Source: Sclerodactyla briareus (lineage: Eukaryota > Echinodermata > Holothuroidea > Dendrochirotida > Sclerodactylidae). From it: 64,000 bases of DNA. The stretch spans positions 1-64,000 of the forward strand of contig JAODTK010005043.1 in the NCBI GenBank assembly GCA_026419785.1, in the 5' to 3' direction. The first letter of the stretch is position 1; each line of letters begins with the position of its first letter. Below, piece by piece: positions 1,905 through 63,743 of this stretch. The notes beneath the pieces are model-generated. The model did no database searches. It was not told where the DNA came from and saw nothing but the letters and a program-made list of their open reading frames with translations. The position numbers and the translations under genes were made by a program.

Positions 1905-2627
1905 TCCCCGCGCAGGAGTTGGTCCGGGGAATTATGGTTTGGGGTGTAGCCGCCGCCACCGCGCCGTCCCAGGCTCCGCCGCCGCCGCGGAAAACTTTAG
2001 GTGTAGCGCATAACTCTTAACTTCGTTATCCGGTTGCTCTGAAAACTTGGTACACATGTCCGCCCTAGTAAAATCTCGGATGAGTTCGAACGTGGCCATC
2101 ACTGCAATACTGGGGGACGCTAATTTGCATAAATTATGCGAAATTTTAAGTTAGGCGGTCTGACCAACTTGGTGGTAGGGACTTAGTTAATCTCGAAAAA
2201 TGTGGAGGGCATTCAAGGTCATCGAAGGTCAAAGTTACGGAATTAGCGATTTTTAAAAAAAAAATCAGATTTGACGAACTTGGTGGTAGGGACTAGAGTT
2301 GATCCGGAAAAAATGTGAGGTCATCTTAGGTCATTGAAGGTCAATTTGAAGCGAATTTACGCGAGTTTCCTAACTTTGTTAGATGTGAACGAAACTTGGT
2401 GGTTAGGGACTACATTATTCCTCCAAAGTTCGAAGTCATTACAAAGCCATCTTGAGATAACTTGGCATAATCATGTGCCATTTACTTCATGGATACAAAC
2501 AAAACTTGGTGGAGAAGGTTACTGGTTTCGACCAAAATGGGGGTCTTATGGGTGTTAGATACTTCTGACAATGATTGCTCAAAAGCGGTGATATACAAGT
2601 AGGCGGTTTACACGATACACATTCTAG
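1905..2627 (+). mobile_element. Helitron-like non-autonomous element, copy H1, apparently full length
   Basis: The 5' end is TCCCCGCGCAGG directly after GTATA. A conserved subterminal ATTATGGTTTGGGGTGTAG and a GC-rich block of GCCGCC repeats follow. The interior has ~120 bp sub-repeats, each with an AACTTGGTGG motif, a GTGGAGG-type motif and 'GGTCAtnGAAGGTC'. The 3' end has GGCGG-TTTAC (right hairpin arm decayed), a short spacer, then CTAG at 2624-2627 followed by T. The A|TC start and CTRR|T end with an upstream hairpin are the structural hallmarks of Helitrons. No Rep/helicase frame is present. Confidence 0.78.
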
Positions 2628-3214
2628 TTCCCATGGGTGCGACGATACTACTCAGGTGCGCAGGTAGCCAAACTTCTTCTCAATACAATATTACTATTTC
2701 ACGTGACCCTATCCGAGCTCTATGGTGTCAGGTTCCAACGATATGGAGGATCGTAATTTTACTTTAGTATTTGCCGAAGTTTTCGCGAAATAATTCTGAA
2801 TATGTGGTCTTAGCGTATTCTAATCCTCATGACAAAATTACTATAGTGAAAAGCTTTGGTGTGATACAGTTTGGGGATTCTACAACCCCCCCCCCCCCAC
2901 CCAGATACTTTTTTAATAGGAATCATTAGTTGTTTGAATGATTTAGGATGGAAAAACAGTATAGATTCAAAAAATGTGTATAAACAATCAGCAAAAGATG
3001 GTGAGCTGAATATGGTTAATGTGAGTGACAATGGAAGTGATAAACTACGGGATTAGGGTATAGTGATCAATACGTAATGGAAAACTATTATTTGACTATT
3101 TTCTATAAAAACAAAAATGTCGGTAAGCAATTTCACCAATTTGTATCCGTTGTGAATGTCGAGGGAAGATTTAGTGAAGAAATGAATGTGAATTGAAAGA
3201 ATGAATTTATCATA
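2628..3214. other. Spacer without recognised gene
   Basis: AT-rich sequence between two Helitron-like copies, with a 13-base C run at about 2886-2898. Overlapping short frames on both strands around 2810-3056 have low-complexity content and no domain signature, so none is called. Confidence 0.45.
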
Positions 3215-3490
3215 TCCCCACATGGGGATTTTATCGTTGTATCCGCCAAGCGTTTGCCCGCCGCCGACTGTCTCCGTCTCCGCCGGAAAATATTCGTGTT
3301 AACGCGTACCCTCCACGCAGTGTCGATTGGCTTGAAACTTCGCCACCATGTTATCGCGATAAAAATCTGGGATGAGTGCGAAAGTGGGGCGTTGCCGCAC
3401 CACCACGAGAGGCCGCCATCTTTTTGACGAACAATTCTCCGCTGATTGCGCGTTTAGGAGCATGGCGATCGTTTAAGGGCTTTGTTTATT
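3215..3490 (+). mobile_element. Helitron-like element, 5' fragment H2 (variant interior)
   Basis: It begins TCCCCACATGGGG after a TCATA flank. It then has a degenerate ATCGTTGTA box and the GC-rich CCGCCGCC block seen in H1. After ~200 bp the interior changes to a type shared, in reverse complement, with the copy at 26468-27132: the GCGCGTTT..GAGCATGGCGATCGTT segment. The CTAG-hairpin 3' end is absent, so this is a truncated copy. The right boundary is approximate. Confidence 0.6.
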
Positions 3491-3649
3491 GTTTATCAGG
3501 CTGTCACAGACCACTCCGTATGATGATTCATGCACTATATTCGTTTGTACCAAACTCCCTATCCACCCGAAGCTTAAGGTACTGAAGGATTCCAGTTACC
3601 TGGCGACCGTCGAGCAATGGCCGGAGGAAAAAGGCCTATAGAAATTTAG

Positions 3650-3850
3650 GGGAGGGGGGGGGAGAGAATGAGAAGCAGACCAAACTTTTGATGAATTGCT
3701 GGGGCTACTATCTAAGCGGAGCGCCACCATGTTGGCGCGTAAATAAACGTAAAGTGGTTAAAGGCGTTTTAAAGAGAATTTTGGGTTTTACAAACCCCCG
3801 GATGGCCGGAAACGGCACTTCCTGAGCGTTGTGTGAGCGATATGTTAACC
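3650..3850 (+). repeat. Solo unit related to the ~197 bp monomer
   Basis: It contains TAAGCGGAGCGCCACCATG, TTGGCGCG, AACCCCCGGATGGCCGGAAA and CGGCACTTCCTGAGC in order. The same string of landmarks appears at 38620-38740 and in the units at 23.9-24.8 kb. It is a single dispersed copy, not an array. Both ends are approximate. Confidence 0.6.
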
Positions 3851-6164: not shown

Positions 6165-6200
6165 ATCAACTTCTATGTTGGATTTATCGATGACATAATG
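6165..6200 (+). CDS. Possible 36-bp micro-exon (hypothetical)
   Basis: A pyrimidine-rich tract ending TAATACAG precedes the segment, and a consensus donor (ATG|GTAAGTGAT) follows immediately. The 36 bases form 12 open codons reading INFYVGFIDDIM. A good acceptor, an open frame divisible by three and a strong donor so close together are suggestive. However, so short a segment can arise by chance, and no partner exon was found nearby. Function unknown. Confidence 0.2.
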
Positions 6201-6268
6201 GTAAGTGATTTAGACAGTGTATAGTTTATTACATATAAATGATATTACCGATAAATGACAAAATATCT

Positions 6269-6890
6269 CATTAGAATATTCAGCCCCTTGAACGGTGGAC
6301 AAGTGAACAGGGCCGATCGGCCGATTCAATGACATAAAAATCAAGACGCTTCTCCCAAGGGGATATCTCTTTGACCCAGACGGAGGTATTTAAGCTTGAA
6401 GTGGTTTTTTCAATTGTACTGGGAAAGGATATTTTTTTGAGCGTGATGAAACTCAAACAGCAACAATTGAGGGGCTAAGAACTGACAAATGAATGTCTTG
6501 AGGAAATAGTATGGGATACATATTTTTTCCCAGGAAACATTCCTCACAGGAAACGTACAAATACGAAGGAGCATCGGCCGCACAGATCCACTGTTCAAAC
6601 TTCGAAACACGGATTTCATATAAACTTTTTTGAGTCCGTCGTTTCTGTCGAAATTGACCATGTTGAACCGATTATGTCGATCATTAAACGTTTATTTCAG
6701 TCTATAATTTGCCAGCGATCCGAATTCGACCTCGGAAATGAGAGAATGCGGATAATTCAATAATTTTTATTTGATTAGTACTAGAAGAATTCTCAGTCAG
6801 TCGTAAGAAACACAACGAATTGGTTACCGGTCGCTAAGGCCGGTGGGTCATTGGCTATGGCATTCGGTTCAAGGGGCTCGTTCTGTAATG
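6269..6890 (+). mobile_element. Non-autonomous TIR element (MITE-like), copy T1
   Basis: The left end reads CATTAGAATATTC then AGCCCCTTGAACGG. The reverse complement of the right end reads CATTACAGAACG then AGCCCCTTGAACCG. These are imperfect terminal inverted repeats of about 27 bp sharing an exact AGCCCCTTGAAC core. The whole ~620 bp segment aligns with 31135-31714, which has the same ends. No transposase frame is visible, so it is probably mobilised in trans. The target-site duplication is unclear (possibly TC-type, 2-3 bp). Confidence 0.75.
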
Positions 6891-7559
6891 TCCTGCGCGC
6901 GCCACGAAACACACATCTGAGCGTTAAAAACATCGCCCGCCGGTGTGAAAGTTCCTGCCACCCTTTTTATGCGCGCGTCGTGTCGTGTCGCGTCGCGTCG
7001 CGCTCGGTGTGATGTGGCTGGTGTTGTGAAAGCGCTTAAGCCGGTGGTTACTAATCTAGTGCACAAGCTCACCCGGCAAAACCTTAGGGGAGAATAGACG
7101 AGATTCGGCCTTGTTCGTCGGATTCCCCCCCATTGAAAATTGAAATGAAACTTATTCATCCCATGTTTTCGGATGTTAATTTTGTTGATAAGTATAGGGA
7201 ATCTGTGTAGTAGTTTGGTGTTGGCAGGAGTCCGTCATTCTTCGGAAGGGGAGTTTCGAAATCGTTCTGCACACTGTACGTTCAACGTTGAACTGTCATT
7301 CCCTATGACCTTTGCCACAAAATATCATGGTCATGTCATTTAAAGGACAAACTGAAGGCCAAATTTAACAGGGGCTTATTCAATTAGCTGGATGATAGAA
7401 AAACTGAATTGCGTCAGTCCAAACCGGAAGTCATAGGAAGTGCCGTTACGAGTAAGTAATAATAATTTGAAGTTTGTGTTTTGTTGAAGCATGTGTTATG
7501 CGCACGACGAAAGCATCCCCATCATGCAATAATTGTGATGTCATAAATGCCACACCATG
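6891..7559. other. Spacer with GTCGC-rich patch
   Basis: Immediately right of the TIR element there is a GC-rich stretch at about 6955-7010 with short GTCGT/GTCGC iterations. The rest is ordinary sequence without an identifiable gene. A 96-residue minus-strand frame across 6869-7159 is a by-product of the iterated words (RRDATRHDAR-like peptide). Confidence 0.4.
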
Positions 7560-7905
7560 TTGAACGGTTTCCGTTTTCTATGAAATTCAACAGTAATTTC
7601 ATTCGGAAAAAATTTATTTATGGGGAGAAGGATTGACTGTAGTGGGTTGGTAGGTGGTGATGGTCGTTACTAATTTAGTGTGAGAAAGTCAACAGAACTT
7701 CTGCCTAAACGAGTGACTTATTCTACGAAATGAAACAATCAATATACATAACATTTAATTCCTGTGTGTCCGTGTGACGTCCTGCGTTATTGCGTAATAG
7801 GGATTCTCCCCAAATTCTCAGCATAATGGACCTAACTTTGGAGGCCATTAACTCCTCATAGGAACATCGAATTGATATGAGGTTTAGACCTATATATAGA
7901 TAGAT
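7560..7905 (+). repeat. Interspersed repeat family B, copy 1
   Basis: It aligns in the same orientation with 16540-16870. Shared strings in order include AACAGAACT-CTGC, GACGTCNTGCGTTATT, TCTCCCCAA-TTCT, GCATAATGG-ACTAA and GAACATCG-ATGA. Identity is moderate with frequent small indels. No terminal inverted repeats or poly(A) were defined, so the element class is undetermined. Confidence 0.65.
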
Positions 7906-7947
7906 AGATTGCCAGGTTAAGAATGAATGCGAATTTACGAAACCCGC

Positions 7948-7955
<8 letters not shown>

Positions 7956-7986: not shown

Positions 7987-8311
7987 AAGTTCAGAGAATA
8001 ACCAACGAAGTACAGTGAATTATGGTGGTGATTAAGAGGACTATCGAGTATCTTCAGTTCCTATAATTATACCAGTTATGCAACCTCGTGGGATATTTTT
8101 TTTTTTTCTCATCTACAATCATTCGTAATCTTTCGCGTTTCCGATGTTGTTTGTATGCATGACGCACTACAAGAGGCCAATGACATTTATTTTTTATATT
8201 CAGTATATTATATACTTACTTACTATTAATCACCCTACTACTTACGAATTGTAAAATATGTTTTGCGAATTCCATAGGTTCAATCGTCGCGTGACACCAC
8301 AGGATATAAAA

Positions 8312-8450
8312 CTAGAATGTCGGCGGAGTAAACCGCCAGCGGCTATATCCCCGCATTCTCTTATTCAAGAAATTTGGAATGAACCGGATAATATCGTGGA
8401 AGGAAGAAGACATTATAGACTGTGAACGACAACGTGTACAGGTAATGGGT
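8312..8450 (-). mobile_element. Helitron-like 3' end fragment
   Basis: On the minus strand this reads GGCGGTTTACTCCGCC (hairpin), CGACATT, CTAG, then T, matching the 3' terminus of the family. Only the terminal ~60-140 bp is recognisable. It abuts an oppositely oriented copy starting near 8457, so it may have been disrupted by that insertion or be an independent truncated copy. Confidence 0.6.
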
Positions 8451-8456
8451 TATTAT

Positions 8457-9393
8457 ACCCAATTCGGGGCATTATTATGGTTTTGTTTGGCTTCGCCCGC
8501 CCGCCGGTCCGCGTCCGCGTACGCCGCGTCCGCCGGTGTCCGCGCGTCCGCGTCTCCCGCCGGCGTTTCTTGTTAGCCAATAACTCTCCAACACTCGTGT
8601 CCGTTGAGCCGAAACTTGGCACACATGTCGCCTTAGTAAATCTCGGATAATGAGTCGAAAGTGGCGCGTCGCCACATGAACGGCGTCCGCTAATTTGCAT
8701 CCTTTCCACGTTGGAAAAATTTTCCCGTGAGCGCAATAACTCTTTTTTAAGCTTTATACGATGATCTGAAACTTGATACACTTGTCTTTGCAGGTTCTTG
8801 TAGGGTTGTTGAAAATCTGGAGAGTGTCGGAATGGGGCTCGACTGCAATGTGGGGGCCGCTAATTTGCCAAATTGTCGCGAAATTCTCAAGTTAGTGGGA
8901 TTTGAACGATACTTGGTGGGTAGGGAGTAGGATAGTGATCCCGGAAAATGTGGAGGTATTTCCAAGGTCATCAAAGCGCAAATTTGGCGAAATGTATGAC
9001 GTTTTCCAAACTTTGTCAGATTTTTAAACAAACTGGTGGGAACGAACTATAGTTGAATCCCAAGAATGTGGAGGTCATTTTCAAGGTCCATCGGATGGAG
9101 AAACTTGCAAAATTTATGCGAAGTTCCAAACTTTGTTCAGATTTTGAGCGAAACTTGGTGGATAGGGGGTACATTTGTTAGGAAGTCATTTCAAATCCAT
9201 CATGTGTCAAATTTGCCATAATCATGTGCCTATTAACACCATGGGATTAAACAAAACTTGGTGGATGAAGTTTGAAGTTTGTCTTGGTTTCTGACCAAAA
9301 GGGGTCTTTATGGGGTGTTAGATACTTCTTCCAATGAGTGCTCAAAAGTGGCGGATATACACGGGGGCGGTTTGCCCGCCTACACATGTCTAG
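8457..9393 (+). mobile_element. Helitron-like non-autonomous element, copy H3
   Basis: The 5' end (TTATA|CCC..TTCGGGGC, then ATTATTATGG) has lost the TC dinucleotide but keeps the subterminal box. A long GCC/GTCCGC block follows, then ~110-130 bp sub-repeats with AACTTGGTGG and ATGTGGAGGT motifs. The 3' end is the clearest in the window: GGCGGTTTGCCCGCC, TACACATGT, CTAG at 9390-9393, then T. CpG-rich open frames over 8413-8781 derive from the GCC block and are not genes. Confidence 0.78.
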
Positions 9394-9589
9394 TTCCCAG
9401 AATCACGTAATTGTATGAGGCAACCCTACCGCCCCGGACAAAGTGCGTCCTTAACTAAGCACATTTATTTCACGATTCGAGCTTTTAACACATGACCACC
9501 CGACAGGATGTCAATATTCAGGTCAGAGGTCAAACACATTGCAGTGTGATGTTATGAAAAAAAGATTAAAATCATCATTTGACGGATCA

Positions 9590-10402
9590 GGACAACTAAT
9601 ATGCACCGTAAGTCCCACAAATTACCCTCAGTGATCTTGATGCTGTTGAATACATATAGGGATGGGTAGTAGTAGGTCCTATGCACAAAGTTTCGTCAAA
9701 AATTCCTAAAAGTTTGAGAAAATAATGCAGTACTTATTTAATTATGCTAAGATAGTAATATTAAACACACATAATGATGACATTCAGTGATTTCAACGCA
9801 ATTGAATAAATTTATCGGGACTGTTAGAAGGTCCTATCACCAAGTTTCGTGAGAATTAACAAAAGTTTATAAATTTGCTAATTGCTAAAGGGGCCAACTA
9901 GTATGCCAAATTAGTCATGCAAAGCTGACCTTCATTGACCTCGGCCACATTAGGAAAATTCATCGGCAATGATAGTTTGCCCTATTCACCAAGCTTTCAT
10001 GAATATCCATTGAAGTTTGAATGAAATATCACATACATTATGCTATAATTAGGCTACTGGCCAAAGAAATGCAAACTTGACCTAGAATGGGGACCTTGAA
10101 ATGGTCGCCATGTTTTTCGCTTCCAACAATACCCCACAACACCACCCTTCTGTAAATCGCCCAAAATTGAAAATTTGCCGAAAAACCTGAAAATAGAGGG
10201 CACCAAATATACGATTATAGCCCATTTCGAAATATCGAGTTTTCACTCATACGGACATGTGTACAAGTTTTGGGTCAATCGAGATATAACGTGTTTAAGA
10301 ATGAGAGCGCTAACGCCTAAAGTTTCGGCGCGCGGAGACGGCGGGCAACACGCGCCAAACCATAACAAGTCCCCGACACTTACAGTGGATAGTTGCAGGG
10401 GA
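9590..10402 (-). mobile_element. Helitron-like element, copy H4, 3' truncated
   Basis: On the minus strand the element starts TCCCCTGCAAC after ATTATA, then the TTGTTATGGTTTGG box and a GCGCC-rich block. The part 10085-10402 aligns well with other copies (ACATGTGTACAAGTTT, GCGCTAACGCC). Further left, ~115 bp iterations with 'CACCAAGTTTCGTGAGAA' and 'GGTCCTAT' suggest a divergent interior. No hairpin-CTAG end was found, so the left boundary is uncertain. Confidence 0.6.
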
Positions 10403-11376
10403 TATAATAATGTGTATTGTGACATCTCAGAGGCTCTGGTGTTGGTGGTTTAACGTGTCAAGTCAATCAAGTGTATTCCAGCAAGGAATCACATTATGCA
10501 CATCTATGTGTATACAATTCAACGACAGAGACCCTAAACTGCCAAGACAGAATGCCAACCAACCCATGTTTGCCACAAAAACAAGTGAAACGTCATCGGC
10601 AGGATATTTATTTGATCCCTGGTAGCACGGCAGACAGGACAATTGTTGGATGGCCAAAGGTCGACGTATGGCTTCTCAAGTTTCACCAACCGCAGAGCGA
10701 TTGTCACGGTGCAAGATTCCCAGTACTCAGAAGTTTAGAACCAACAAAAACACTCCCAAATAATGAGATCAAATCCATGCCTTTGTTGGGGGGTTACGGT
10801 GATAATAATTCATTCAAATATACTTTCCATATGAGAATCACTGTGTCATGGGCAAGCAGAGAAGAAACTCTATTTCGAATAAGTAGGAAGTTCCATATAG
10901 TGTCAATCTCAAAGACTTCCTCAAGTGTTTCGCCTTCTCAAATAACGACGCCAGCGCCATACATACCATAACCGCGATTTATAAAGTTGACTCTCTTCCT
11001 GTTGGAAATTTCGAAATACCCTCATGCTCGCGGCAGCTGACAGGAATTGATTCGACCTGAACCTCACTAGGGAAAGCAGGCGAACGAACCAACGCAGGTT
11101 TTTTTTTGTAAAGGGATTTGGTGCATACATTGATCGGACTGCCGCGGGCATTACACTTATCAGAATTTACGGTGAAGTTCACCAAAAGATCTGGGAAACT
11201 TTGTTTTAGCAAGGACACTGATGATTTGTTGAGGCCTGCCGAACCGAAAGTTATTCCACTAATTTGGAACAATTTCGTGTAGCTCCGTAAGCGTTGGTTG
11301 TTTAGGGGAGGCCGTCAAGCAGTATAACAATAATGGCCCCCACCCCCCCCATTCGAGGTGATGTTGAATTGAGTTG
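10403..11376. other. Spacer with a 166-codon plus-strand open frame of unknown status
   Basis: An open frame runs 10471-10971 on the plus strand. Its product has no signal peptide, clear membrane span or recognisable motif, and no donor site follows it. One frame of this length is expected by chance in 64 kb at this base composition, so it is not called as a gene. The minus strand over 10921-11272 has overlapping frames, also unrecognised. Confidence 0.35.
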
Positions 11377-12971: not shown

Positions 12972-13003
12972 AATGATAATGAGTAATAATAGTATTAATA
13001 GTA

Positions 13004-13092
<89 letters not shown>

Positions 13093-13103
13093 AATAATAA
13101 TAA

Positions 13104-13145
<42 letters not shown>

Positions 13146-13256
13146 TAATAATTAATAATAATAATAATAATAATATAATAATAATAATAATAAAATAATA
13201 ATAATAATAATAATAATAAAATAATAATAATAATAAAATAATAATAATAATAACAA
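12972..13256. repeat. (TAA)n microsatellite with an (AAC)n core
   Basis: About 285 bp of TAA/AAT triplets, with an AAC block near 13061-13089 and occasional extra-A interruptions (AAAATAATAA). Open frames across it encode poly-N, poly-I or poly-Y and are artefacts. A Helitron-like element lies directly against its right edge, and the triplet tract resumes on the other side. Confidence 0.95.
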
Positions 13257-14049
13257 CAAGACATGTGTAGGCGGGTAAACCGCCCACGTGTATATCCCGC
13301 TTTTGAGCAATCATTGGGAAGAAGTATCTAACACCCCATGAAGACCCCCATTTTGGTCAGAAACCAAGATAACTTCATCCACCAAGTTTGGGTATAATCC
13401 ATGGAAGTTAATCAGTAGCACATGAATTATGCAAATTTGACCCATGGTGGCTCTGACTTCTAACTTGGGTGAGAGGAATGAATGTAGCCCCAATCCACCA
13501 ATTTTGTTCAAATCTGACAAAGTTTGGAAAATCGCATAATTGGTAGCAAATTATGACTGCCGATGAACCTTGAAATGACCTCCACATTTTTCGGGATCAA
13601 CTATAGTCCCTCACATACCCCCTCGCCCTATCCCACCAAGTTTGTTCTCTTCTAATCTGACAAAGTTTGGAAAATCGCATAAATTTTCGAAAATTTGACA
13701 TTCGATGACCTTGAAATGACCTCCACATTTTTCGGGATCAACTATAGTCCCTACCCACCAGGTTTCGGTCAAATCTGACTAACCCTGAAAAATTCCGCGG
13801 GAATTATGCAAAATAGCGGACCCCAAGCATGCAGTGATGCCCACTTTCGATTTCATCCGAGATTCCACTAGGGCGGTCATGTGTACCAAGTTTCAGATCA
13901 ATCGGATAAAGCGTTTAAAGAGTTATTGCGCTAACGCCAAAGTTTCCAGCGGCGGCGGAGCCTGGGACGGCGGCGGCGACGACTGTGGGCGGGGCGGGCG
14001 CTACACTCCCAAAACCATAAAATCCTTGAACACTTCCAGTGTGCGGGGA
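13257..14049 (-). mobile_element. Helitron-like non-autonomous element, copy H5, inside a TAA microsatellite
   Basis: On the minus strand it starts TCCCCGCACACTGGAAGTG after ATTATA. The TTTATGGTTTTGGG box, the CGCCGCCGCC block and ~130 bp sub-repeats (TGACCTCCACATTTTTCGGG on the plus strand at about 13578 and 13707) follow. It ends GGCGGTTTACCCGCC, TACACATGT, CTTG, T. The terminal tetranucleotide is CTTG instead of the CTAG of other copies. TAA triplets flank both ends, consistent with insertion between A and T inside the microsatellite. It is one of the most complete copies. Confidence 0.8.
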
Positions 14050-14125
14050 TATAATAATAATAATGATAATGATAATATTAATAATAATAATAATAAAAAT
14101 AAAAATAAAAATAATAATAATAATA
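14050..14125. repeat. (AAT)n / (AAAAT)n microsatellite
   Basis: Imperfect AAT, GAT and AAAAT iterations. Most simply this is the right-hand remainder of the 12972-13256 tract split by the Helitron-like insertion. Confidence 0.85.
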
Positions 14126-15120: not shown

Positions 15121-16539
15121 ACCTATATGGTAGGCCGACGGACGGGCACACACTGGTACAGTGGTTTTAAGTAAACCAATCTCTCTGGACACCTGTATTT
15201 TCCCCTCCCCATATGCTGGTAATTGAACAATCCCATAGGATATAGGCTTGTATCATTTACAAGTTGGCCAGGGATTAAGAACAGATTGATACAAGTTTGA
15301 CTATTAACTGGTTGATGTAACATCGTTTTGGCGCCTCATATATAGAAGGTTCCTCCAGTTTTATCAGACCTAAATTCTTCCCAAGCAGAAGTATTGAGGT
15401 CATATGGAAATACTAAATGACTTCAATTAAGTTGAGTCAAGTACTCACTATTAAAGTTGCGTTAAACTCCTTCTGAGAAGGGTCTGGTAAGTAATCTCAC
15501 TCACCGACGAGGAGTGATTTTTTTGCATTTCTGTGCGACTCAATTATGTGGACTTCATACGAAGGAGCGGAGTGGGCAACATGCACGAGACGACTTTCTT
15601 CGACGTATACAACCGAAGGTTATTATGTTTAGTTAATACTTTGTAGTCAGGCCACAGGTTTACGGAGGACATTTGAGGATCTAGCAGTTTTCGCAATAAA
15701 AAAATATTCATATGGGGGAAGAAGGGGGCCCGGTCCAAGCAAAGCTTCGAGACCGACATAAAGACTATGTATGCAACCTTTACTATCACCAGGTTTTGTG
15801 ACTAGGAAAACGTCGGAGTTTATTCGCTTGGTTTCAATGGTTCAATTTCAATGTTAAATTTAGAGTGCATAGAACACATGTTGTTTTGCAAATTTGCATA
15901 AACAACAGCTGGAAAACTATAGAGTGCCGCCAGTGGGAAACAAGTGTTTTTGTGTAACAAACAAAATTATTGGTCACACAGTCATGGAGGGTTTTTCTGA
16001 ACCCCCACCCCCTCCCCCCACCGGTGTTGGAATTACGACACTGGTCTTGTTCAGCTCCAGATCGATACAGGTATAGAGCATCGCCACCAAAAGACGGACC
16101 AGTGGAAGAGACCGAGTCAGGAGGCCATGAAGGAACAAGAAAATCATGAGTGCCATGTGAGACGTCAAATGAGCGGGAAAGATGACGTAGACTATAGTGT
16201 GATCAGTTACGCTGTGCATCCAAAGGAACATTCCGGGTTCAGAGTTCCAGCTGCATTGGAACGGTTTTCCTAGGTGACGAACTTGCAGTGCGCGTGATGG
16301 GCGGATGGGCGAGTATTGGTACGTCTTCATTTAATGGTTACACTGTAATGCAGCTTGGTTTGTTTCGGGATATTTGCAGAGCGGAACGTTTGAAGGACAC
16401 TGCAAGGAATAATGATAAAGGGCTTAATACTTAGCTTAGGAGTTACAGTCCTTTGAGCTTTGTGCATGTGATTGCGCAAGATCGGAAAGGCATCCCATAG
16501 TTCAATAATAAATGATGTTATACTTGCACAACCCGGAAC
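15121..16539. other. Spacer with a hydrophobic minus-strand open frame at 15974-16330
   Basis: A 118-codon minus-strand frame encodes a hydrophobic stretch (TIVYVIFPAHLTSHMALMIF then LPLVRLLVAMLYTC) that could form two membrane spans. Its C-terminal part reads a poly-G/C tract as GGGGGG. Good splice sites are lacking at both ends and no receptor or transporter signature was found, so it is left as unassigned. No other gene seen. Confidence 0.25.
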
Positions 16540-16870
16540 CATAATACGTTTTTCACACATCAATTTCACTTTGGAGAAGCATTATTCTATGGGAAAGGTT
16601 TGATGAGTAGGTTAGGTGTGACTGGTGGTTTCTTCGCTAAGAAGGAAACGACAACAGAACTCCTGCGCTTTAATGTTGGGACTTAATCAACAAAAGGAAA
16701 CAATGAAAATTAAACATGAATTTCCACGGTTGTCCAAGTGGTACGTCATGCGTTATTTCACAATTAGGCCTGGATTTTCTCCCCAATTTCTCTGCATAAT
16801 GGGACTAAACTTCGAAAGCCCAGGATAACTCAACTAGAACATCGTATGAAATGGTTTGGCCCTATAGATA
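16540..16870 (+). repeat. Interspersed repeat family B, copy 2
   Basis: Partner of 7560-7905 in the same orientation, with the same ordered landmarks (ACAACAGAACTCCTGCG, TACGTCATGCGTTATT, CTCCCCAATTTCTCTGCATA, ACTAGAACATCGTATGAA). It lacks the downstream poly(A) seen near copy 1. A small piece of the same family (AAATTCTCAGCATAATGG) may also lie at about 63610. Confidence 0.65.
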
Positions 16871-17566
16871 TCGTTTTCCATTCCCCAGCGATATAACATC
16901 TGTTGTATCCAAGCCCTGCAGTTGTCCTTTGATGGACAGGTTGAATCGAGTCAAAAAGTGAGATAAGTGAGAAAATGGGTCAATGGAAGTTGGAGTTGTG
17001 GCAAATTGCATAATACAGTCACATTTTGGTCTCACATCTTACCAAACGTATGCTACGGTAGTAGAAATCGCAGGTCAATGATCAGGCCTTACGAATTTGA
17101 AAATTGGGCAAATGATCAGTAGGCTACGAGCCCCTGCGAGGGGGGGGGGGTGCTGGGGGGCTGCACAACCCAGATTTTATGATGGGGTGCGGAGCACCCC
17201 TACCGATTTCAGGTCATTTGTACGCCCCCTGTCGATTTTGAGCTTAAAGGATGTCATTGGATTCAATATTTGCACGAAAATTTGGTATCCCGGTTTTTCG
17301 AAATCAGCTGGACTGGTAAGTTGTCTTCAGTGTACTTGAGGTCTAACTAATTATTTATTATTTAGAGGGTTTAAAATTTTTGGTGAGAAGGCAGAAAGCC
17401 AAAGAAAAAAAAGAAGAAAAAAAATAGCGCCTGCGCGCGCGGTATCCGATATTTTCCGTTACAGTTTCAGTGGACCCACGGGAAAATAACATTGTCAGAT
17501 TCTGGCAATATATTTTTGTCTCCCTGAACTTTGTTCAAGGAAGACATATGGTACTTTGTTTGTGTT
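16871..17566. other. Spacer, no gene recognised
   Basis: Includes a G-rich patch at 17140-17165 followed by GGGGTGCGGAGCACCCC, a short inverted repeat near 17184, and an A-rich patch around 17400-17425. No supported exon. Confidence 0.4.
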
Positions 17567-25054: not shown

Positions 25055-25953
25055 CTAGAAATGTGTAGGCGGGTAAACCGCCACGTGTATTTCCCCAATT
25101 TGGCAATCATTGGGAAGAGGTATCTAACAACCCCATAAAGACCCCATTTGGTCAGAGAAACCAAGAGAAACTTCATCCCGAAGGGTGTTATAATCCATGG
25201 GTGTTGATAGGCACATGAAATATGCGATATTATTTGACAATGTGGCTTTGAAAGGACTTTTCACTTGTGAGGAAAAATGTACCCCCCATCCACCAAGTTC
25301 GTTTCGAATCTAAAAAGGTTGGAAAAAATCGCATAAAGTTTGCAAGTTTGAATCCGATGACCCTTGAACTGACCTCCAACTTTTTCGGATTTAAACTATA
25401 GTTCGTTCCCAACCAAGTTTTCGAAGTAAAATGACAAGTTTGAAAATCGCATCAATTTCACAAATTTTGACCTTGATGACCTTGAAATGGACCTCCACAT
25501 TTTCGGGATCAAATATAGTCCCTATACCACCAGTTCGTTCAAATCGATAACTTGAATTATGCGAAAATTATGCAAATAGCGGCCCCCAGCAGTTGCCAGC
25601 GATCTGCCCACTTCCGAACTCAATCCGAGATTTCACTAGGCGGACAATGTACAGTTTCCGATCATCGGATTTAAGCGGTTTTGAAGAGTTATTGCGTAAC
25701 GGGAAAATCTGCCAATCGTGGAAAGTATGCAAATGAGGGATCCGTCATTGTGGCGACGCCCAATTCGAAACTCATCCGAGCATTTCACTAAGGGCTGATA
25801 TGTGTGCCAAGTTTCCGGCTCAAATGGACCAAGTGTTTTGGAACGTTATTGCGCTAACAAGAACGCGGCGGCGGACGCGGACGCGGACGCGGCGGCCGGC
25901 GGCGGCGGAGACGGCGCAGCCAAAACCATAATGTTTCACACACGAAGTGGGGA
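25055..25953 (-). mobile_element. Helitron-like non-autonomous element, copy H6, full length
   Basis: On the minus strand it starts TCCCCACTTCGTGTG after ATTAGA, then ACATTATGGTTTTGGC and a CCGCCGCCG-rich block. It seems to contain the 'ACTTGGCACACATATC...GTTATTGCGCAAT' module twice (about 25600-25700 and 25720-25860), then ~120 bp sub-repeats. It ends GGCGGTTTACCCGCC, TACACATTT, CTAG, T. Both ends are preserved, and internal duplication makes it longer than H5. Confidence 0.8.
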
Positions 25954-26149
25954 TCTAATGAGAGAAGTCTATTGTACTACTGTCTTATACATGTAACGGA
26001 AAGCATAGAGATAGAATGCCAGGCGCGGCAGCGCGAAAATTTTTTGCATTGCGGCCTTCTCAAAATGAAATGTAGGCAACTCTTATAAGAAATATGATTA
26101 GACCATGAGTGTTATGGCTGAGTACGGTACATATGATTAAAGGATTTTT
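25954..26149. other. Short spacer
   Basis: Unremarkable sequence between the H6 copy and a G/C hairpin; contains GCGCGGCAGCGCGAAAATTTTT, which echoes the palindromic core of repeat family C. Confidence 0.4.
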
Positions 26150-26467: not shown

Positions 26468-27132
26468 CTAGACATCGCCTGGCGGGTAAACCGCCAAAAT
26501 TATATCCCCCTTTCCGCTCAATCAGAGGTGACATTGTTCGCCATTGTTTTCCTATCAGAAGGAATTCTGACCCAGGAAAGTGTGTGAGTGGGGGGGGGGG
26601 GGGGTTGATTTGCACAAGCTCATGCCTACACATATACAAATGTCAAATCTGCAGTAAATCCTTTTCGCAAAAATTCAAATGGCTGCCTGGTGAGGTCGTA
26701 TGATGGGGCGGAAAAAAAGGTGGGTCTCCAACGATCGCCATGCTTCAAACGCGCAACTCGGGCGATTAAACTTAGTATTGCCGAAATTCCAAAATGGCCG
26801 CCGTCATAGCTGTTCGGCTCCGCCACTTTTTCGACCCTTCAATATTTTCATTAGCGATCCGTGTGCAAAGTTCATATGGATCCGCACAGGCACTATAGTT
26901 ATTGTACAAACACTATCAATTCAGTTCGTTGAAAATTCAGGTGGCCGCCGCCAGAATGGTCCCGCGACGCCGCCATTCGAACTCATCGAGTTGGAAGGGG
27001 CGAACATGTGGTGCCAGAGTTTCTTCTTGTCAATTCGACATTGTGTTAGAGAGTTTGTGTTAACATGAAAATTTTCCGCGGACCGGCGGCTGCGGCGACG
27101 ACGCTGCCAAACCATAATATCCAGAAGTGGGA
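26468..27132 (-). mobile_element. Helitron-like element, copy H7, variant interior
   Basis: Minus strand: TCCCACTTCTGG after TTTATA, then ATATTATGGTTTGG and a GCCGCAGCCGCCGG block. It ends GGCGGTTTACCCGCC, AGGCGATGT, CTAG, T. The ends are family-typical, but the interior differs from H5/H6 and matches H2 (GGCGATCG..GGAGACCC, CGCCGCCATTCGAACTC-like modules). This looks like a second subfamily with its own interior between the same termini. Confidence 0.72.
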
Positions 27133-27439
27133 TATAAATGATCAATGCACTGCATATCATAGAGAATCTTTTTGCACTTGGGCTAGTAGTTTGGCTATCT
27201 AGTAGAAATGCACTCAAATTAATTGTATATATGCCCACGGATTTGTGAATGTAGGCCACTGATATTCCAGCAAGCCCGTGTGTTTGCGAGGATATGCTGT
27301 ATTCCCCCCCCCCCCCCCCCATTTTCATGAGGGGGTACCCCCATCCCCCAGGATCGGCGCCGCCCCTAGCCTTGCCCCTGATGCCACCATATAAGGTTGT
27401 TGCTTCCCACTCGGTTCCATTATGATTTTCTTTTTGCGA
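27133..27439. other. Spacer with 17-base C run
   Basis: No gene. C17 at 27304-27320, followed by GGGGGTACCCCCATCCCCC, a small inverted repeat. Confidence 0.4.
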
Positions 27440-31080: not shown

Positions 31081-32210
31081 CTAGACATCTGTAGGCGTTA
31101 AACCGCCCACGTGTATATCCCCGCTTTTGAGCAACATTAGAATTTCCCAGCCCCTTGAACGGTGGACATGTGAACTGGCCGATCGGCCATCAAGCCGCTT
31201 CTCCCCTAGGGAGCATCTCCTTGGACCAGTTGGTATTTGACCTTGCAAGGTGGTTCATTGTCTGGGAACGGATTTTTGAACGTGAAACTCGAAACATCGA
31301 CGGTGGAGAGGCTAATACTGATAAATTGAAATTGTCTGGAGTAAATAGTATGGGATCATATATTTTTCTCAGAAAAATACACAGGAAACGTAAAATATAC
31401 GAGCATCAGCCGGACAACGAAAATATTTCAACGATCCTGTTAAACTTTGAACGGATTCATATAAACGTGAGTCTGTCGTTTTCAGTCGAAATTGAATCGA
31501 TTTTGATCATTGAAACGTTTTATTTCATTCAGTCTACTATTTTTCAGCGATGCCGAATTCGAAATTGAAATGAGAGAATGCGAAAATTCAATCACTCATT
31601 CAATTTTGATAGAATAACTTCCCAGTCCTCAATAGAAACCACAAGAATGTTGCACCTGTCGTCAAGGAGGGTCATTAGCTATGTCACTCGGTTCGAGGAG
31701 CTAGTTCTGTAATGAATAATCCGGAAGTAAGTATCCAACACCCCATGAAGACTTCATTTTGGTCAGAAAGCAAGATAGCCTCCATCCACAAGTTTTGTTG
31801 TAATCATGGAAGGTACCAGAAAGTGCATAAATTGCAAATTTCAAATTTCAAATCTGACAAAGTTTGGAAAATTGCATAAATCATGCAAATTTGACTCTCG
31901 ATGACCTTGAAATGACCTCCACATTTTTTTGGGACCAACTATATTCCCTACCCACCAAGTTTCGTTCAAATCCGACTACTTGAAAATTTCGCGTAAATTA
32001 TGCAAACTAGCACCCCCCAGCATTGGCAGTGATGCACACTTCTGAGCCCATCCAAGATTTCACTGTGGCGGCCATGTGTACCAGTTTCAGATAATTTGGA
32101 TAAAGCGTTAAAGAGTTATTGTGTTAACGGCGGTAGCGGCGGAGCCTCGGGCGGCTACACACCCAAAACCATAATATCCCCGGACACTCCCAGTGTGGGG
32201 GGGGGGGGGA
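31081..32210 (-). mobile_element. Helitron-like element, copy H8, interrupted by a TIR element
   Basis: Minus strand: TCCCCCCCCC-ACACTGGGAGTG after ATCATA, then ATTATGGTTTTGGGTG and a GCCGCTACCGCC block. Sub-repeats (ATTTTTTTGGGACCAACTAT on the plus strand) follow, then a ~580 bp foreign segment (31135-31714), then GCTCAAAAGCGGGGATATAC, GGCGGTTTAACGCC, TACAGATGT, CTAG (31081-31084) and T. Removing the insertion leaves a normal-length copy. The G run at 32197-32209 has expanded the usual four Gs. Confidence 0.8.
31135..31714 (+). mobile_element. Non-autonomous TIR element, copy T2, nested in H8
   Basis: Left end CATTAGAATTTCCCAGCCCC-TTGAACGG; reverse-complemented right end CATTACAGAACTAGCTCC-TCGAACCG. 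The body aligns with 6269-6890 (GGCCGATCGGCC near the left end, TTGAAACGTTTATTTC-like sequence in the middle, GAGAATGCG and AATTCAATA to the right). It interrupts the 3' part of a Helitron-like copy, so it is younger than that insertion. A 137-codon open frame at 31155-31568 lies inside it but is absent from copy T1, so it is not considered a gene. Confidence 0.78.
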
Positions 32211-32427
32211 TATGATTACCTGTAGACCTCCCAAGTCATCCTTCATGGGCTGCAATTGTTTTTTATTGAGGTTGAGATGATGCCATTTGATCTAGGACAT
32301 TAAACCCACCATTCAAATTGCTGCTAAGATCTTGTAAGTTTTCCATATTATCGCCTCAATTTGCCAATAGGGACATCTGATTGAGTTAACTGACCTTGTT
32401 ATCTCTCCTTCTCTCCACCTAAATTAG
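32211..32427. other. Short spacer upstream of exon candidate
   Basis: Ordinary sequence ending in a pyrimidine-rich tract (TTATCTCTCCTTCTCTCCACC) that would serve as the acceptor of the exon candidate at 32428. Confidence 0.4.
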
Positions 32428-46639: not shown

Positions 46640-47170
46640 TTTAATGCTAATTAAGTTCCCTTATTTGCATAATTAACTTCAACATTGCCAAAGTTTGTCA
46701 GATTTTCAGAAATTTGGTGGACATGGTCTACCTTTAGGCTGATGTTATGTCAAGGCGTCGGTCCATCAAGGTCATTTGAGGTTTTCCGAATTTGCATAAT
46801 TTATCATTTTTTCCAAGTCTGCTAATTTTTTCATGAAACTTTGGTGGATGTGCTACCATTTGTCCAACAAAATTTGAAGGTCGGGTCAAGGTCCCAGAAG
46901 GTCATTTAAGGTGGGTCTAATTTGCAGTACATTTATGCAAATTTTTGGAATTATCATATTTTCATGAAACTTGGGTGATGTGATACACGTAATGTTCTGA
47001 GATATTTGGGGTAGATTTGGGGTCAGTAGAGGTCAATACTGTGGAACTAATTTGCATAATTTAATGCTACTTTTGAAAGTTAGTCATATTTCACAGGTTT
47101 GTGGCACATGGTCAACATCAGTCTAAAATTTTTTGCTGGAGGCATTTATCCTACCCTGGTTTCAATAATT
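46640..47170 (+). repeat. Tandem-structured repeat, ~115-125 bp units
   Basis: Units carry AATTTGCATAATTTA, CATGAAACTTTGGTGGATGT, CTACCATTTGTC and AAGGTCATTTAAGGT-like boxes in the same order, recurring four times with decay. The boxes match the style of the Helitron-like sub-repeats and of 17690-18900. Confidence 0.6.
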
Positions 47171-51918: not shown

Positions 51919-52425
51919 AATTGGAAGTGTCCGAGATATTATGGTTTTGGGTTTTAGCCGCCCCGTCCTGGGCTTCGCGCCGGAAACTTCCGGCGTTAGC
52001 GAAATAACTCATTAACGCTTTAGCTATTGTCTAACTTGCTACATATGTCCCACCCATGAAATCTTGAGACTTCGAAAGTGGGCATCACTGCAATGCTGGA
52101 CAGCCGCTAATTCGCATAATCTATGGCATAATTTTATGCAGTTTTCAAACTTCGCAGATAAAAATGAAACTTGGTGGGATGAGGGCTACATTTGTTTCTC
52201 CTGGCAAAGTTAAGGCCGTTCAAGGTCTTGGTGGGTCAATTTGCATATTTTATGCTACTTTTTTTGTGTAACTTCCATGGATTACCACAAAACTTGGTGA
52301 ATGAAGGCTATGCTATCTGGTTTCTGACCAAATGGAGGTCTTTAGGGGTTGTTAGATACTTTCTCTCATTATTCCTCCAAGCGGGGATATACATGTGGGG
52401 GGTTTTACCGCCTTACACAGTCCAT
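51919..52425 (+). mobile_element. Helitron-like element, copy H9, short and end-eroded
   Basis: The first ~11 bases of the element are missing (TTATAA then TTGGAAGTGTCCG). The ATATTATGGTTTTGGG box, a short GC block, AACTTGCTACATATGTCCCA, GGGCATCACTGCAATGCTGG and AAACTTGGTGGGATGA follow in family order. The 3' part keeps GCGGGGATATACATGTGGGG-GGTTTTACCGCC but CTAG is mutated. The interior is shorter than in H5/H6 (fewer sub-repeats). Confidence 0.72.
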
Positions 52426-59765: not shown

Positions 59766-60401
59766 TCGCGAACTGAAGGTCTGGGTGGGGGAAATTCAGT
59801 GGAATGCTGCTTCTCTGGCCCGGCTCCAGCTGAGTCTAGTCGACATTTGAGAAGACTTGCCTGGTATAGACATGGTTCAACACGGACTATTGTACTTTGT
59901 ACAGACAGGTGATTGCTGATACAGCCCCCCCCCCCCCCATATAAACATAGGCTCAAAATTGGGTAGGATCAACTTCCCCCCAATCAAGGATTGTCCAGGA
60001 AGTTCAATCTGTTAAAGGCATGCTAAAATACTGAAGCTGTTCAAGTTACTCTTTTGAACTGTCCTTGAGACTTCCAGGTCGCATCTCATTTCAATTTGGA
60101 AAGACAAAAGTCAAGGCCATGTTTAACTGTGGGAGTGAATCATTCATTCCAATATGGGTATTTGTACCTGTGTTGGTTTTGGTATCAAGGTTTGTTTTAA
60201 ACCTCTACTTCCACGTTGCCATGGTGATAGTGCGTTCTTGCTGAAGGTGGGGAATCATTGAAATGACCCATTGGTATCCTATCCTAATAAACCAACCCTA
60301 TAAAAACCGACCTTGGAGGATCCACCCCTGGACTCTTCAAAAATAATATGAACAGTACAAGGGGTAAAGAAGAAGTCAGGTGTTTCTCCTTTTTCCTCTA
60401 G
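59766..60401. other. Probable intron or spacer
   Basis: A C run near 59925 and no gene. It ends with TTTCTCCTTTTTCCTCTAG, an excellent acceptor for the next candidate exon. Confidence 0.35.
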
Positions 60402-60463
60402 TTAGATCAGGATTGGTGGCAACAGGGTGTGGGGGAATCCTTCTGACTATAATTGTGACCTGT
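60402..60463 (+). CDS. Candidate 62-bp exon 2 of the putative membrane-protein gene
   Basis: A strong polypyrimidine acceptor is followed by two bases completing a codon and then 20 codons, RSGLVATGCGGILLTIIVTC, ending at TGT|GTAAGC. It is hydrophobic and glycine-rich, compatible with a membrane helix. Its phase fits the 52-bp candidate at 52683 exactly and leaves phase 0 for the next exon. The intron would be 7.7 kb. Function unknown. Confidence 0.33.
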
Positions 60464-62671
60464 GTAAGCTGGTGGCTTTGAGGTGAAACATTCTATCCAC
60501 TTTAATAAGGGCCAATTATAAAACCGATCAAATTCACGCAAATCATGCCATACCCCATCAGCCAAAATGCTAGCTTCCAGTTTCAGGACTAAATCTCATT
60601 AAATGCAGGGAGGATGATCCTAACCTTTTTCCTAAACTGTAACCGGGACTTTCAGATGAAAAAAACTACTGAAAATCTGTTTTCGCCATATATAAATGGG
60701 TAAAAAAGTTAGCTGTTTGAGTGGCCACTATTTCCGGGCTTTTTCCTTCACTGGAGACTTAGAGGGAGGTGAGCAATTGTGCACGACTAGTGACCGCTTA
60801 GGGACAACGCGCTTCATGGAAGCAATTTACTTACTTCAGATAGACACTAACCAAGTCCATCAAAACCTATAGATGTTCTATAGTGTGTCCCTCAAAGACT
60901 ATTTCCAGCAATTGCAAAATTCCCCCCTTTTGAACACTCACCCGGGGGTACCTTCATTCCTTGGGGTCCCCAAGAGAACAAACAAGATCGGGGAGCGGAA
61001 TGACGTCTTCTACAAAATTGTGCAGAAAGATAGGACCTAAGGACAATCTCATTTAGTTCCACTGGTATAACCTCGGTGGGTTGGGAAGGCGCAAAATTGC
61101 GTATTTACTGTGGTAGAGTCTACATGGCGGCCTCTGCATTGTCACATAACACACCCCCCCCATCCCCCCTGTGATGTCCTTTGAACTCGACAAAAATGAC
61201 TCGAACAGGCTACAGCTAGCTAGCATCTCCAAGTTTAGGGTGTGGGGTTCACTTGGTCTCTCATGTACATGTGCCAATTTAAATAAAGGAAGCGGTTTTA
61301 CACGCCAGGGGTACTTTGGAAGGGGATGTCATCTGGTAGCAACTTAAGAACTAACGTCAGCATCTTTATATCATGCCTCGTGTTGACGAAAAAAAAACCG
61401 CGGTGCAAGTTCAATAAAGAAATGTTTATGTCTTCCCTATTCATTTCAGTGATTCTGATATACCGTTAGTGGTATATTCTGCTGTTTTTTAATATGCAAA
61501 TGGAACATCGGTTATTCGCTGAAGGTTGTGGCACGTTATTGCCTGTTTGAGTGTAAATAAACAGAAGTTTTTGGGCAAGTTTGAAACACTAAATTTTGGA
61601 GTACAGGTTTTGTAGAAATGTAAAATTCATACTTTTCATACTTTTCATTCAAAGCATCAGCTGCCTGTTTTGAGAGTTCGTTTGAACTCCTTACTCAACG
61701 AATGTCCCCATCCATTATTACCCGGTGTTTGTGAGACAATCAGACATCCTCTTTGAGACAAGAACAAGTTCTCCTCCCCTTCAGTCCACCCCTCTCACAA
61801 CTGTTTGAGGGGCCTACACTAGACCTTCGCAGCGTGCTAAATTTGGTGCATTGCCACCTAGTGCTGAGCCAGAAGTATGTCTCAGTGCTATGACGTCATC
61901 GGAAATTAGGGGACTCACGAGTGATTGGAGATACTGGAGGTGGAAGCACGATGGCTCGGTTAGTTAATGTCATTAAACGCTAATAAATCAATTTTGCCCA
62001 ATAGAGATAAATGTTAATATCTAGGATTTCGCGCACCGACACAGCTTATTTGTATTCTGAAGAGGTATTGCTTGATAGGATACACATCTCGAGTAGTGAG
62101 TACAGGTAGCTAGTTGCCCTTTGATATCTTAACCTATTGAAAACAATCATTTTGAAGCAGAGAGTTGATACCTGAGCAATGAGTAACTGATATTGTTTAT
62201 CTTATGTTTGATAACGGAGTATGTTATTCATTGGAGTAATATTTTACCCTACGTACCATTCTGAGGGCCAGTGCAAATGGCTGGGAAACAAAGTACATTT
62301 TGATAACCCTGTCTGTACAGGAGTCAACGCTTGTCCATTCATATGGGTGTGAAATGATAGGGAAGGGTTCATATTGTCTCCCATGTGGGGGGGGGGGATT
62401 ATTTTCAAGAGTAACTTATGCTAGGAACAATGGATGGAGAGAAAAAACACACGTAGAAGAGAACACGTATGGTATTCTTGGTATGCATGCTACCCCCTCC
62501 CACACTCCCCCCTGCTTCCTCCGCTCTACCTTCTTCCCATCCCCCATCTCTTCAGATTGTAGAAGGTTAGACATCTTTACATAAAATGTGAGACTTCTCA
62601 TATGATGTTTGATGATTGTATGATCGAGTGGCTGAAGACACTTGTCAATTGTATACACTCTCCTCATATAG
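60464..62671. other. Probable intron or spacer
   Basis: No gene or clear repeat. An acceptor-like CTATTCATTTCAG at 61448 is followed immediately by TGA in the required phase, so it cannot extend the putative gene. G run near 62387. Confidence 0.35.
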
Positions 62672-62687
62672 GACTACCCTGACCATG
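62672..62687 (+). CDS. Possible 16-bp micro-exon 3 (speculative)
   Basis: ACTCTCCTCATATAG acceptor, 16 bases (DYPDH plus one base), then CATG|GTAAGTCAA, a consensus donor. It can follow the 60402 exon in phase 0. Exons this short are rare, so this is weak support on its own. Confidence 0.15.
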
Positions 62688-63639
62688 GTAAGTCAAATGT
62701 GGTGCATTGTCAAATCCAAAGCAAGTCCTGTGCATAAATTACCCTAGATGGTCAGCCCAAAGCTAACTCCAGGGTGTGTTACCCAGGTTTTGTTGGGGAA
62801 TAGACTGGCCTTTGTATTTTCAATTGTTACGTCATTCTGTGTGACTGAGGGGTTTGTCAATATGTAAGAATTGTATGACCCTTCACAATTGACCCCCCTG
62901 TCTGGGGGGGGGGAGGGGAGGGGTATAGTTCCTTTCTTATTCACAAGTGTATGAGCTGTGGAGTCTGGAGTTTTTATTCACTGTCAGGTTATACTTTATT
63001 ACTGTTATACATATGAGTAGCAATACCATTATGCTTGGTGTTACTACCGGACATACAATTGCGGGGGTTGGGATTCGGTCCGGGGTGGCGGGGGGGGGGG
63101 GTTGGTGGTGGGGGACAATTTACTAAATCTAGCCATCCAAGATGGAGAAAAAAAAAATGTGAGTGCTGCGAAAAAGCTACAGAGCGTGCTAGACTATAAT
63201 GCTGCCGCTCAAATACTGTATTAAGCGGATACTGGCCAACACTTTAGTGGGGAGCAAAACAACAACCAAGATGGGTTGGCAGCCAAACGGAGAAGAGATG
63301 TACTATACAGCTTCATTGTAGTGAGGTGAAACCCCTACTAGTGGATAAAAAGCTGAGGCTAGGATATGTTCAATTCTATACTGCTACCTGGTAACTAAAG
63401 CTATGAGCAGCACACACCGCTATACTGTAGTAATGTCTTTGCATACATAGACAAAGCTGCAGATGCATGTTCCTACCAGAGTACTACCTAGCTAACCTGA
63501 GGCCTGCAGGATCGCATCAGTCCTCCGGAAATTTCACTCGTTCAATTTTGCGCCACAATGGCCCAAACAATCAATAGCTGAAAAAAGTTTCTCTCATTTG
63601 TAATTTCAAGAAATTCTCAGCATAATGGGTAAAATCCTA
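62688..63639. other. Spacer, no gene recognised
   Basis: G runs near 62905 and 63090 (GGGGTGGCGGGGGGG). A short AAATTCTCAGCATAATGG near 63610 matches repeat family B. Otherwise unremarkable. Confidence 0.35.
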
Positions 63640-63743
63640 TGTTCTGATACCTAAAGTTCCGCCGGGCGGTGGTGGTGCGTGGAAGATGACGGTGGCTCAG
63701 CCCCAAAACCAGAATAACCTCCAAAATTGAAACGTTGCGGGGA
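63640..63743 (-). mobile_element. Helitron-like element, 5' fragment H10
   Basis: Minus strand: TCCCCGCAACG after ATTATA, then GGTTATTCTGGTTTTGGGG, then a short GC block with GCCACCGTC and CCACCACCGCCCGG. The copy breaks off after ~100 bp into sequence resembling repeat family B. Only the 5' terminus is preserved. Confidence 0.6.

Follow-up and report, generated by a model that had tools for sequence, protein, structure and literature searches.

In the 64,000-nt stretch of Sclerodactyla briareus DNA that we analysed as a whole (the window), a single interspersed repeat family is represented by about ten copies, some of them fragmentary; we identify this family with high confidence as a non-autonomous rolling-circle transposon family with Helitron2/Helentron-type ends. 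Its assignment to the Helitron superfamily as a non-autonomous element is supported by a 3' hairpin followed by CTAG, by insertion at A|T, where any duplication is limited to an ambiguous TT, and by the lack of coding capacity. The anatomy is that of the published non-autonomous Helitron2/Helentron (HINE) kind, with its TNA|TT target, to which a Helitron1-like CTAG end is added, making this a new family of a known kind. The original prediction had read the repeats as Helitrons with the TC...CTRR signature; the superfamily, the non-autonomous nature and the A|T step hold, whereas the canonical subtype does not.

Copies of the family in the window and in the genome

Genome-wide, the 3' end pattern has 393 matches with up to two mismatches (201 and 192 by strand) and the 5' end pattern 230 matches with up to three (118 and 112), compared with none on either strand for either pattern reversed; the abundance of the repeat family is far beyond chance. 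The family is confirmed at the places where the original prediction had put it. The simplest reading of two of the listed items, at 8312 and 9590-10402, is that they belong together as a single element on the minus strand (8312-10407). This probable single element is divergent, has its 3' end CTAG at 8312 and its 5' end TTATATCCCC at 10407, and is interrupted by another copy. When the sequences on either side of that copy (8309-8452 plus 9394-9544) are joined, they align through the join with C2413:94243-94542, the CTAG end included. Because the stretch 9545-10071 had no match among the family copies compared, we infer the link of the 8312 part to the 5' end at 10407. The nested copy itself (8453-9393, plus strand) is full, with the boundaries A|TTATACCC...CTAG|TT and a paralogous empty site in L032; its 3' inverted repeat (9346-9359, plus strand) has diverged and matches its own 5' end exactly over just 4 nt.

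Further full copies lie on the minus strand at 25055-25958 (full-length match to the family majority sequence at 85%), at 13257-14054 (86% over 13259-13948, with the 3' end CTTG) and at 31081-32212, the last with a 576-bp foreign insert at 31139-31714. Both ends are also present in the copies at 1901-2627 (plus strand; CTAG at 2627, interior tandem repeats, 81% to the majority sequence over 2004-2627) and 26468-27138 (minus strand), the middle of which (~26514-26963) is unrelated or very diverged. A diverged copy at 51919-52425 (plus strand) lacks a clean 5' terminus and has a degenerate 3' end, and 5'-end fragments are found at 3213-3399 (plus strand; TATCCCCACATGGGGAT palindrome, weak match over 3363-3399) and 63640-63748 (minus strand; TTATATCCCC). 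One more piece, short and similar to the central tandem repeat, lies at 46663-46735 (plus strand) and had been absent from the original list.

The elements are mostly 0.8-1.0 kb long, with a G+C-rich repetitive stretch after the 5' end and an interior of non-coding tandem repeats of ~155 and ~117 bp, including central direct repeats. The longest stop-to-stop frame spans 68-153 aa in 33 copies, which leaves no coding capacity; these copies were picked by similarity to one window copy, which biases divergence values drawn from them. Fifty window frames reach 100 aa; Pfam searches with ten of them gave no match, nor did Rfam on the window at the gathering threshold, nor a literature search for three of the family's end sequences as text strings.

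Element boundaries and insertion site

The 5' boundary had been placed at TCCCC after an AT-rich flank, mostly (T)TATA. We find instead that the family starts with TTATATCCCC and that similarity among copies continues into TTATA; the original prediction had named similarity running past TC as evidence against itself, and at the 5' boundary this is what is seen. Of 58 matches to the 5' motif, 20 proved to be the inverted 3' repeat and were dropped, and in the 38 kept the information before ATATCCCC was 0.38-1.48 bits at positions -5 to -1 and 0.01-0.22 at -6 to -16. The arrangement TNA-T(1-3)-ATATCCCC occurs in 33 of these 38 ends compared with a background of 3.7%; two ends (L020:968 and window 8452) are imprecisely anchored, and both are among the five missing the TNA target.

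Paralogous empty sites were available for four independent insertions: L021 (three diverged paralogs), L043, L018 and the window copy at 8453-9393. When the occupied sites are cut at A|TT...CTAG|T, left plus right flank reproduce all four empty sites, mismatches aside, and the empty sites lack the TATA that a TCCCC boundary would leave behind. They give the full boundary model A|TTATATCCCC...CTAG|T, with TNA|TT as the target and insertion at the A|T step. None of the four comparisons revealed a target-site duplication beyond the ambiguous TT.

Terminal structures

The predicted 3' hairpin, CTAG and following T were recovered as a structure, although CTAG is not universal. The end consists of a GGCGG...CCGCC hairpin and ~13 nt up to and including CTAG, followed by T; among 44 collected 3' ends, 33 read CTAG, three TTAG, one (at 13257 in the window) CTTG and seven otherwise. 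The 3' flank starts with T in 43 of the 44 and with TT in 37, two window copies having TC or TA after the 3' end, not TT. The stem is 86.5% paired over 41 alignment rows. Folded by itself, the 3' end has only a modest advantage over shuffled sequences (z -1.78; equalled by 12 of 200). Covariation support for the end structures is weak: changes on both sides occur at four of eight pairs of the 3' stem, a level matched by 9 of 500 shuffles, but sliding the structure by 1-3 columns still gives 2-3 such pairs. One misplaced row (L055) in the 3'-end alignment, A1, slightly lowers the pair counts.

At the other end, TTATATCCCC lies inside the palindrome ATATCCCCacttcGGGGATAT, the short form of which has a DNA fold of -6.7 kcal/mol (z -3.19; equalled by 2 of 200 shuffles). 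In the 31081-32212 copy, the longer 5' stem-loop is no better than shuffles (z +0.37; 127 of 200 do as well), and the covariation check found no compensatory changes in the 5' palindrome.

Terminal inverted repeats had been predicted to be absent, and here the prediction fails: besides the palindrome, the family has an asymmetric inverted repeat of 13 bp. Its 5' copy, TATATCCCCACTT, is set 1 nt in from the 5' terminus, within the palindrome, and its 3' partner, AAGTGGGGATATA, lies at a distance of 34 nt from the 3' end. The order at the 3' end is inverted repeat, GGCGG/CCGCC hairpin and CTAG. Of 36 copies, 14 have an exact repeat of 11-14 nt and the other 22, including all six window copies measured, one of only 4-9 nt.

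Search for an autonomous partner

Profile searches of the genome found no intact Rep/helicase, just decayed fragments, and in the window's contig the Helitron_like_N and PIF1 searches gave no match, in agreement with the original prediction for the window. For the autonomous partner that it expected elsewhere, the searches recovered no intact candidate, and family ends do not enclose the fragments. Pfam Helitron_like_N has three genomic matches at two places, C2413 and C2926; this Pfam family is not known to tell Helitron subtypes apart by itself. PIF1 has one match, with two stops inside, and this search may miss intron-split genes, because the host PIF1 gene was likewise not recognised. DUF6570 had no match in the genome, but its profile is silent everywhere and gives no evidence of absence. 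Used as a query, the first C2413 Rep piece matched itself only.

We scanned ~20 kb around each Rep/helicase remnant for family ends. Near the C2413 remnant lie a decayed family 3' end, at C2413:98014 (upstream of Rep), and a further 3'-end hairpin near C2413:94511; the scan also met a normal-sized family copy near C3088:178.7-179.6 kb. None was found around the C2926 remnant, and in no case did family ends enclose a Rep/helicase remnant.

Comparison with known elements and alternative explanations

A 5' TT terminus, an asymmetric inverted repeat and a 5' palindrome are described as marks of Helitron2/Helentron-type elements (PMC3627910, PMC4067079, PMC5148889), and the same overall anatomy appears in these descriptions and in PMC7492417. 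In descriptions of non-autonomous Helitron2 elements, the asymmetric inverted repeats measure 8-15 bp and the 5' repeat lies 0-2 bp from the end, inside a 5' hairpin; the repeat found here, at 13 bp and 1 nt, falls within these ranges, and the hairpin is represented by a sequence palindrome. The 3' repeat, reported 20-30 nt from the end in Helitron2 (PMC3627910) and ~30-40 nt in Fusarium FoHeli1/2 (PMC5148889), lies upstream of the 3' hairpin in Helitron2 and in our family, here at 34 nt, outside the Helitron2 range. A 5' T is shared with Helitron2, and a TNAT-type target with FoHeli1/2 (PMC3627910, PMC5148889); unlike Helitron2, which is described as ending in ATTTT, the family ends in CTAG, and no coding family copy was found.

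With the non-autonomous Helentrons HINE/DINE-1, as described in PMC4067079 and for oyster Cg_HINE in PMC7492417, the family shares subterminal inverted repeats (one close to the 5' end, the other internal to the 3' end), a palindrome at each end, central tandem repeats, a T-rich target without clear duplication and a non-coding sequence. Where HINEs are reported to carry a microsatellite, it has its G+C-rich stretch; its usual terminus is CTAG next to an A|T step, in contrast to the T runs of HINEs at a TT target, and its 3' repeat lies 34 nt from the end compared with 38-60 nt in mite HINEs. A 5' TT, a 3' CTAG and A-T insertion without duplication also characterise proto-Helentron-Pi of Phytophthora infestans (PMC4067079), which differs in being coding and ~14 kb long and among whose features, as described there, inverted repeats do not figure.

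Several points count against the Helitron2/Helentron reading. No intact autonomous partner was found in the genome searches; such a partner would be expected to carry a Rep/helicase of the Helitron2 clade or, for a Helentron, a C-terminal AP endonuclease. CTAG as the 3' terminus, a hairpin 13 nt from the end and insertion at A|T resemble Helitron1. The 3' repeat, at 34 nt, falls between the ranges given for Helitron2 and mite HINEs, the exact inverted repeat is short in 22 of 36 copies, and the covariation and part of the folding evidence is weak. The whole Helitron2/Helentron end design thus occurs together with the CTAG terminus and AT insertion of Helitron1, which raises the possibility, which we regard as tentative, that the family descends from a lineage between Helitron1 and Helitron2 whose enzyme would have read both signal sets and has since been lost from the genome.

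We consider it unlikely that this is a canonical Helitron1 non-autonomous family, with a TC start after an AT-rich flank, a CTAG end, no inverted repeats and a classical Helitron Rep/helicase. The genome's Rep remnants match Helitron_like_N, which on its own is not known to be subtype-specific, and CTAG at 33 of 44 3' ends, the hairpin and A|T insertion without duplication (the TT ambiguity of the four empty sites remaining) are Helitron1 traits, the spacing of 13 nt being one above the ~10-12 nt range in PMC5148889 for a hairpin upstream of CTRR; however, the 5' terminus is TT, not TC, similarity reaches TTATA, the empty sites carry no extra TATA, the target is TNA|TT, and the asymmetric repeat and 5' palindrome are present. 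The 5' end alignment, the empty sites and the repeat measurements lead us to reject a TC start with absent inverted repeats.

A terminal-inverted-repeat MITE that a cut-and-paste transposase mobilised, duplicating a TT target, is very improbable: the family has an inverted repeat, the TT of the four empty-site comparisons is readable as a 2-bp duplication and DINE-1, of similar anatomy, was formerly called a MITE (PMC2374699), but in place of symmetric terminal repeats and a fixed duplication the repeat is terminal at the 5' end and 34 nt inside the 3' end, with the hairpin and CTAG beyond it, the flanks hold no longer duplication (mean longest match 2.88 vs 2.65 for shuffled partners; reached or exceeded in 15 of 200 shuffles), and no target duplication that would prove cut-and-paste was found beyond the ambiguous TT.

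Proposed mechanism and significance

For a non-autonomous family with Helitron2/Helentron-type ends, kinship suggests that a Rep/helicase supplied in trans would nick the element ends, one strand would be copied by rolling circle, with the 3' hairpin serving as a stop signal, perhaps aided by pairing of the two asymmetric repeats, and the copied strand would be joined into an AT step. The source enzyme may be extinct, or too decayed, divergent or intron-split for recognition in the assembly, for which reason the family is probably inactive. For calling a canonical Helitron, CTAG at the end and an AT target do not suffice; a TC...CTRR detector would set the 5' boundary of the family some five bases inside its true position and place the family in the wrong subgroup. 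With hundreds of well-marked ends genome-wide, the family offers material on the end signals that rolling-circle transposases need.

Extent and boundaries of the family

Checking each listed copy letter by letter and by BLAST within the window bore out a repeated family at the places named in the original prediction. Across the genome (319 Mb, 3171 contigs), the 8457–9393 copy gave 52 match rows, one being the query itself, and its non-self matches showed 71–87% identity (40 of 2022 candidates scored). Pattern searches of the genome recovered 201+192 3' ends (up to two mismatches) and 118+112 5' ends (up to three mismatches), with 0+0 for either reversed control.

From 37 sequences (the window and 36 loci extracted from the genome) we collected 44 3' ends and 58 hits to the conserved 5' motif ATATCCCC; removing the 20 hits that proved to be the inverted 3' repeat left 38 5' ends. 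Positions -5 to -1 before ATATCCCC carry 0.38–1.48 bits of information, compared to 0.01–0.22 bits at -6 to -16, and conservation therefore reaches outward past TCCCC, the start originally proposed. TNA, one to three T and ATATCCCC follow one another in 33/38 5' ends (background 3.7%). The 3' terminus is CTAG in 33/44 cases, TTAG in three, CTTG in one and another sequence in seven; the next base is T in 43/44 and the next two TT in 37/44, with slight conservation beyond.

Uninterrupted paralogs matching the flanks were found for four insertions: the copy in locus L021 (window 7489–7902, window 16439–16932 and locus L023), that in L043 (an inverted paralog nearby), that in L018 and the window copy 8453–9393 (both L032). 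These paralogs are diverged, at about 68–84% in aligned pieces. With the element taken as TTATATCCCC...CTAG, a left flank ending in A and a right flank starting with TT restore the empty site apart from mismatches; among the L021 empty sites, one has TAT and the other two TTT. The target-side TATA predicted by the earlier boundary is absent from the empty sites. The TT could equally be shared between the two sides or be a 2-bp duplication, an ambiguity likewise described for Helentrons (PMC4067079). No target duplication longer than TT was detected: the mean longest flank match was 2.88, versus 2.65 in shuffled partners, and 15/200 shuffles were at least as high. The L021 insertion lies in another dispersed repeat, represented by its three empty sites (L023:1448–1908 in that locus), whose identity to the sequence flanking the L021 copy is 70–74%.

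Terminal structures and interior

A palindrome forms the 5' end, TTATATCCCCACTTCGGGGATAT (folded as DNA, -6.7 kcal/mol, z -3.19). Its first half is found again in inverted orientation (AAGTGGGGATATA) at a distance of 34 nt from the 3' end, contrary to the expectation that inverted repeats are absent. Exact complementarity between the two spans 11–14 nt in 14/36 copies, 9 nt in four and 4–8 nt in 18; the six measured window copies have 4–9 nt. Folded alone, the 3' end gave z -1.78, and for the longer 5' stem-loop of the 31081–32212 copy shuffles fold equally well (z +0.37). In the 5' stem, pairing is 88.8% and both-sided changes are lacking. The 3' stem shows 86.5% pairing across 41 rows. Both-sided changes affect 4/8 of its pairs (9/500 shuffles score as high); slid structures still give 2–3 such pairs, so covariation backing for it is weak.

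The 33 paired copies are mostly 0.8–1.0 kb long (range 503–1033), with longest stop-to-stop frames of 68–153 aa. They lie 2.9–42% from the majority sequence (at most 22% in 31/33), the two most similar copies differing by 4.7%. Direct repeats in the copies measure about 155 bp (two) and about 117 bp (at least three). Ends of the form TGCACATGTCTAG mark a second subfamily, detected in L055 and L056; only in L055 was its 5' end observed, and there it has a longer stem-loop. At around position 3008 of locus L012 (contig C2478), the 5' ends of two family copies abut directly (GGGGATATAA|TTATATCCCC), the copies lying head to head.

Revised copies in the window

The matches at 8312 and 9590–10402, previously separate items, are most simply one minus-strand element (3' end at 8312, 5' end at 10407) split by the plus-strand copy 8453–9393: the joined flanks 8309–8452 and 9394–9544 match contig C2413:94243–94542 across the junction, CTAG end included. 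A family match covers 10072–10364; 9545–10071 has no match among the collected copies, and continuity of the split element there is therefore what we infer. The 31081–32212 copy contains a 576-bp insert (31139–31714), also present at 6269–6890; this element, 576–620 bp long at the two places, has imperfect inverted ends of about 25 bp (CATTA...AGCCCCTTGAAC) and, compared with the 13257–14054 copy, a 7 bp overlap at its insertion point; it looks like a TIR transposon (MITE). AAT/ATA microsatellites at 12972–13253 and 14051–14125 directly adjoin both sides of the 13257–14054 copy, which suggests that it inserted into a microsatellite.

Predicted autonomous partner and classification

The autonomous partner expected elsewhere was sought throughout the genome, where Rep and PIF1 remnants were present and an intact source was not found; the assembly is possibly incomplete, and introns or divergence might conceal one. 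Helitron_like_N (PF14214) matched only at C2413:103101–103575 and contig C2926:127103–127219. The C2413 pieces form a decayed Rep remnant of two overlapping frames, each matching Helitron_like_N (L030:997–1785 and L029:1468–1758; C2413:102597–103668), the first of which retrieved no other relatives as a genome query. PIF1 matched at a single place, with two stops. None of the three remnants was enclosed by family ends in the surrounding sequence examined (roughly 20 kb per remnant).

Helitron2 elements are described with asymmetric terminal repeats, the 5' one lying within a 5' hairpin and the 3' one upstream of the 3' hairpin (PMC3627910), the Fusarium elements FoHeli1/2 with insertion after TNAT (PMC5148889), and HINEs, the non-autonomous Helentrons, with additional central tandem repeats (PMC4067079; PMC7492417). 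The family agrees structurally with these descriptions, save in the distance of its 3' repeat from the 3' end, which lies between published ranges. It departs from canonical Helitron1 in two respects but shares with it, as does proto-Helentron-Pi, the CTAG end and insertion at an A|T step. Judged by published descriptions, the family is filed as an apparently new non-autonomous member of the Helitron2/Helentron kind; by this kinship, its copies would arise through rolling-circle steps.
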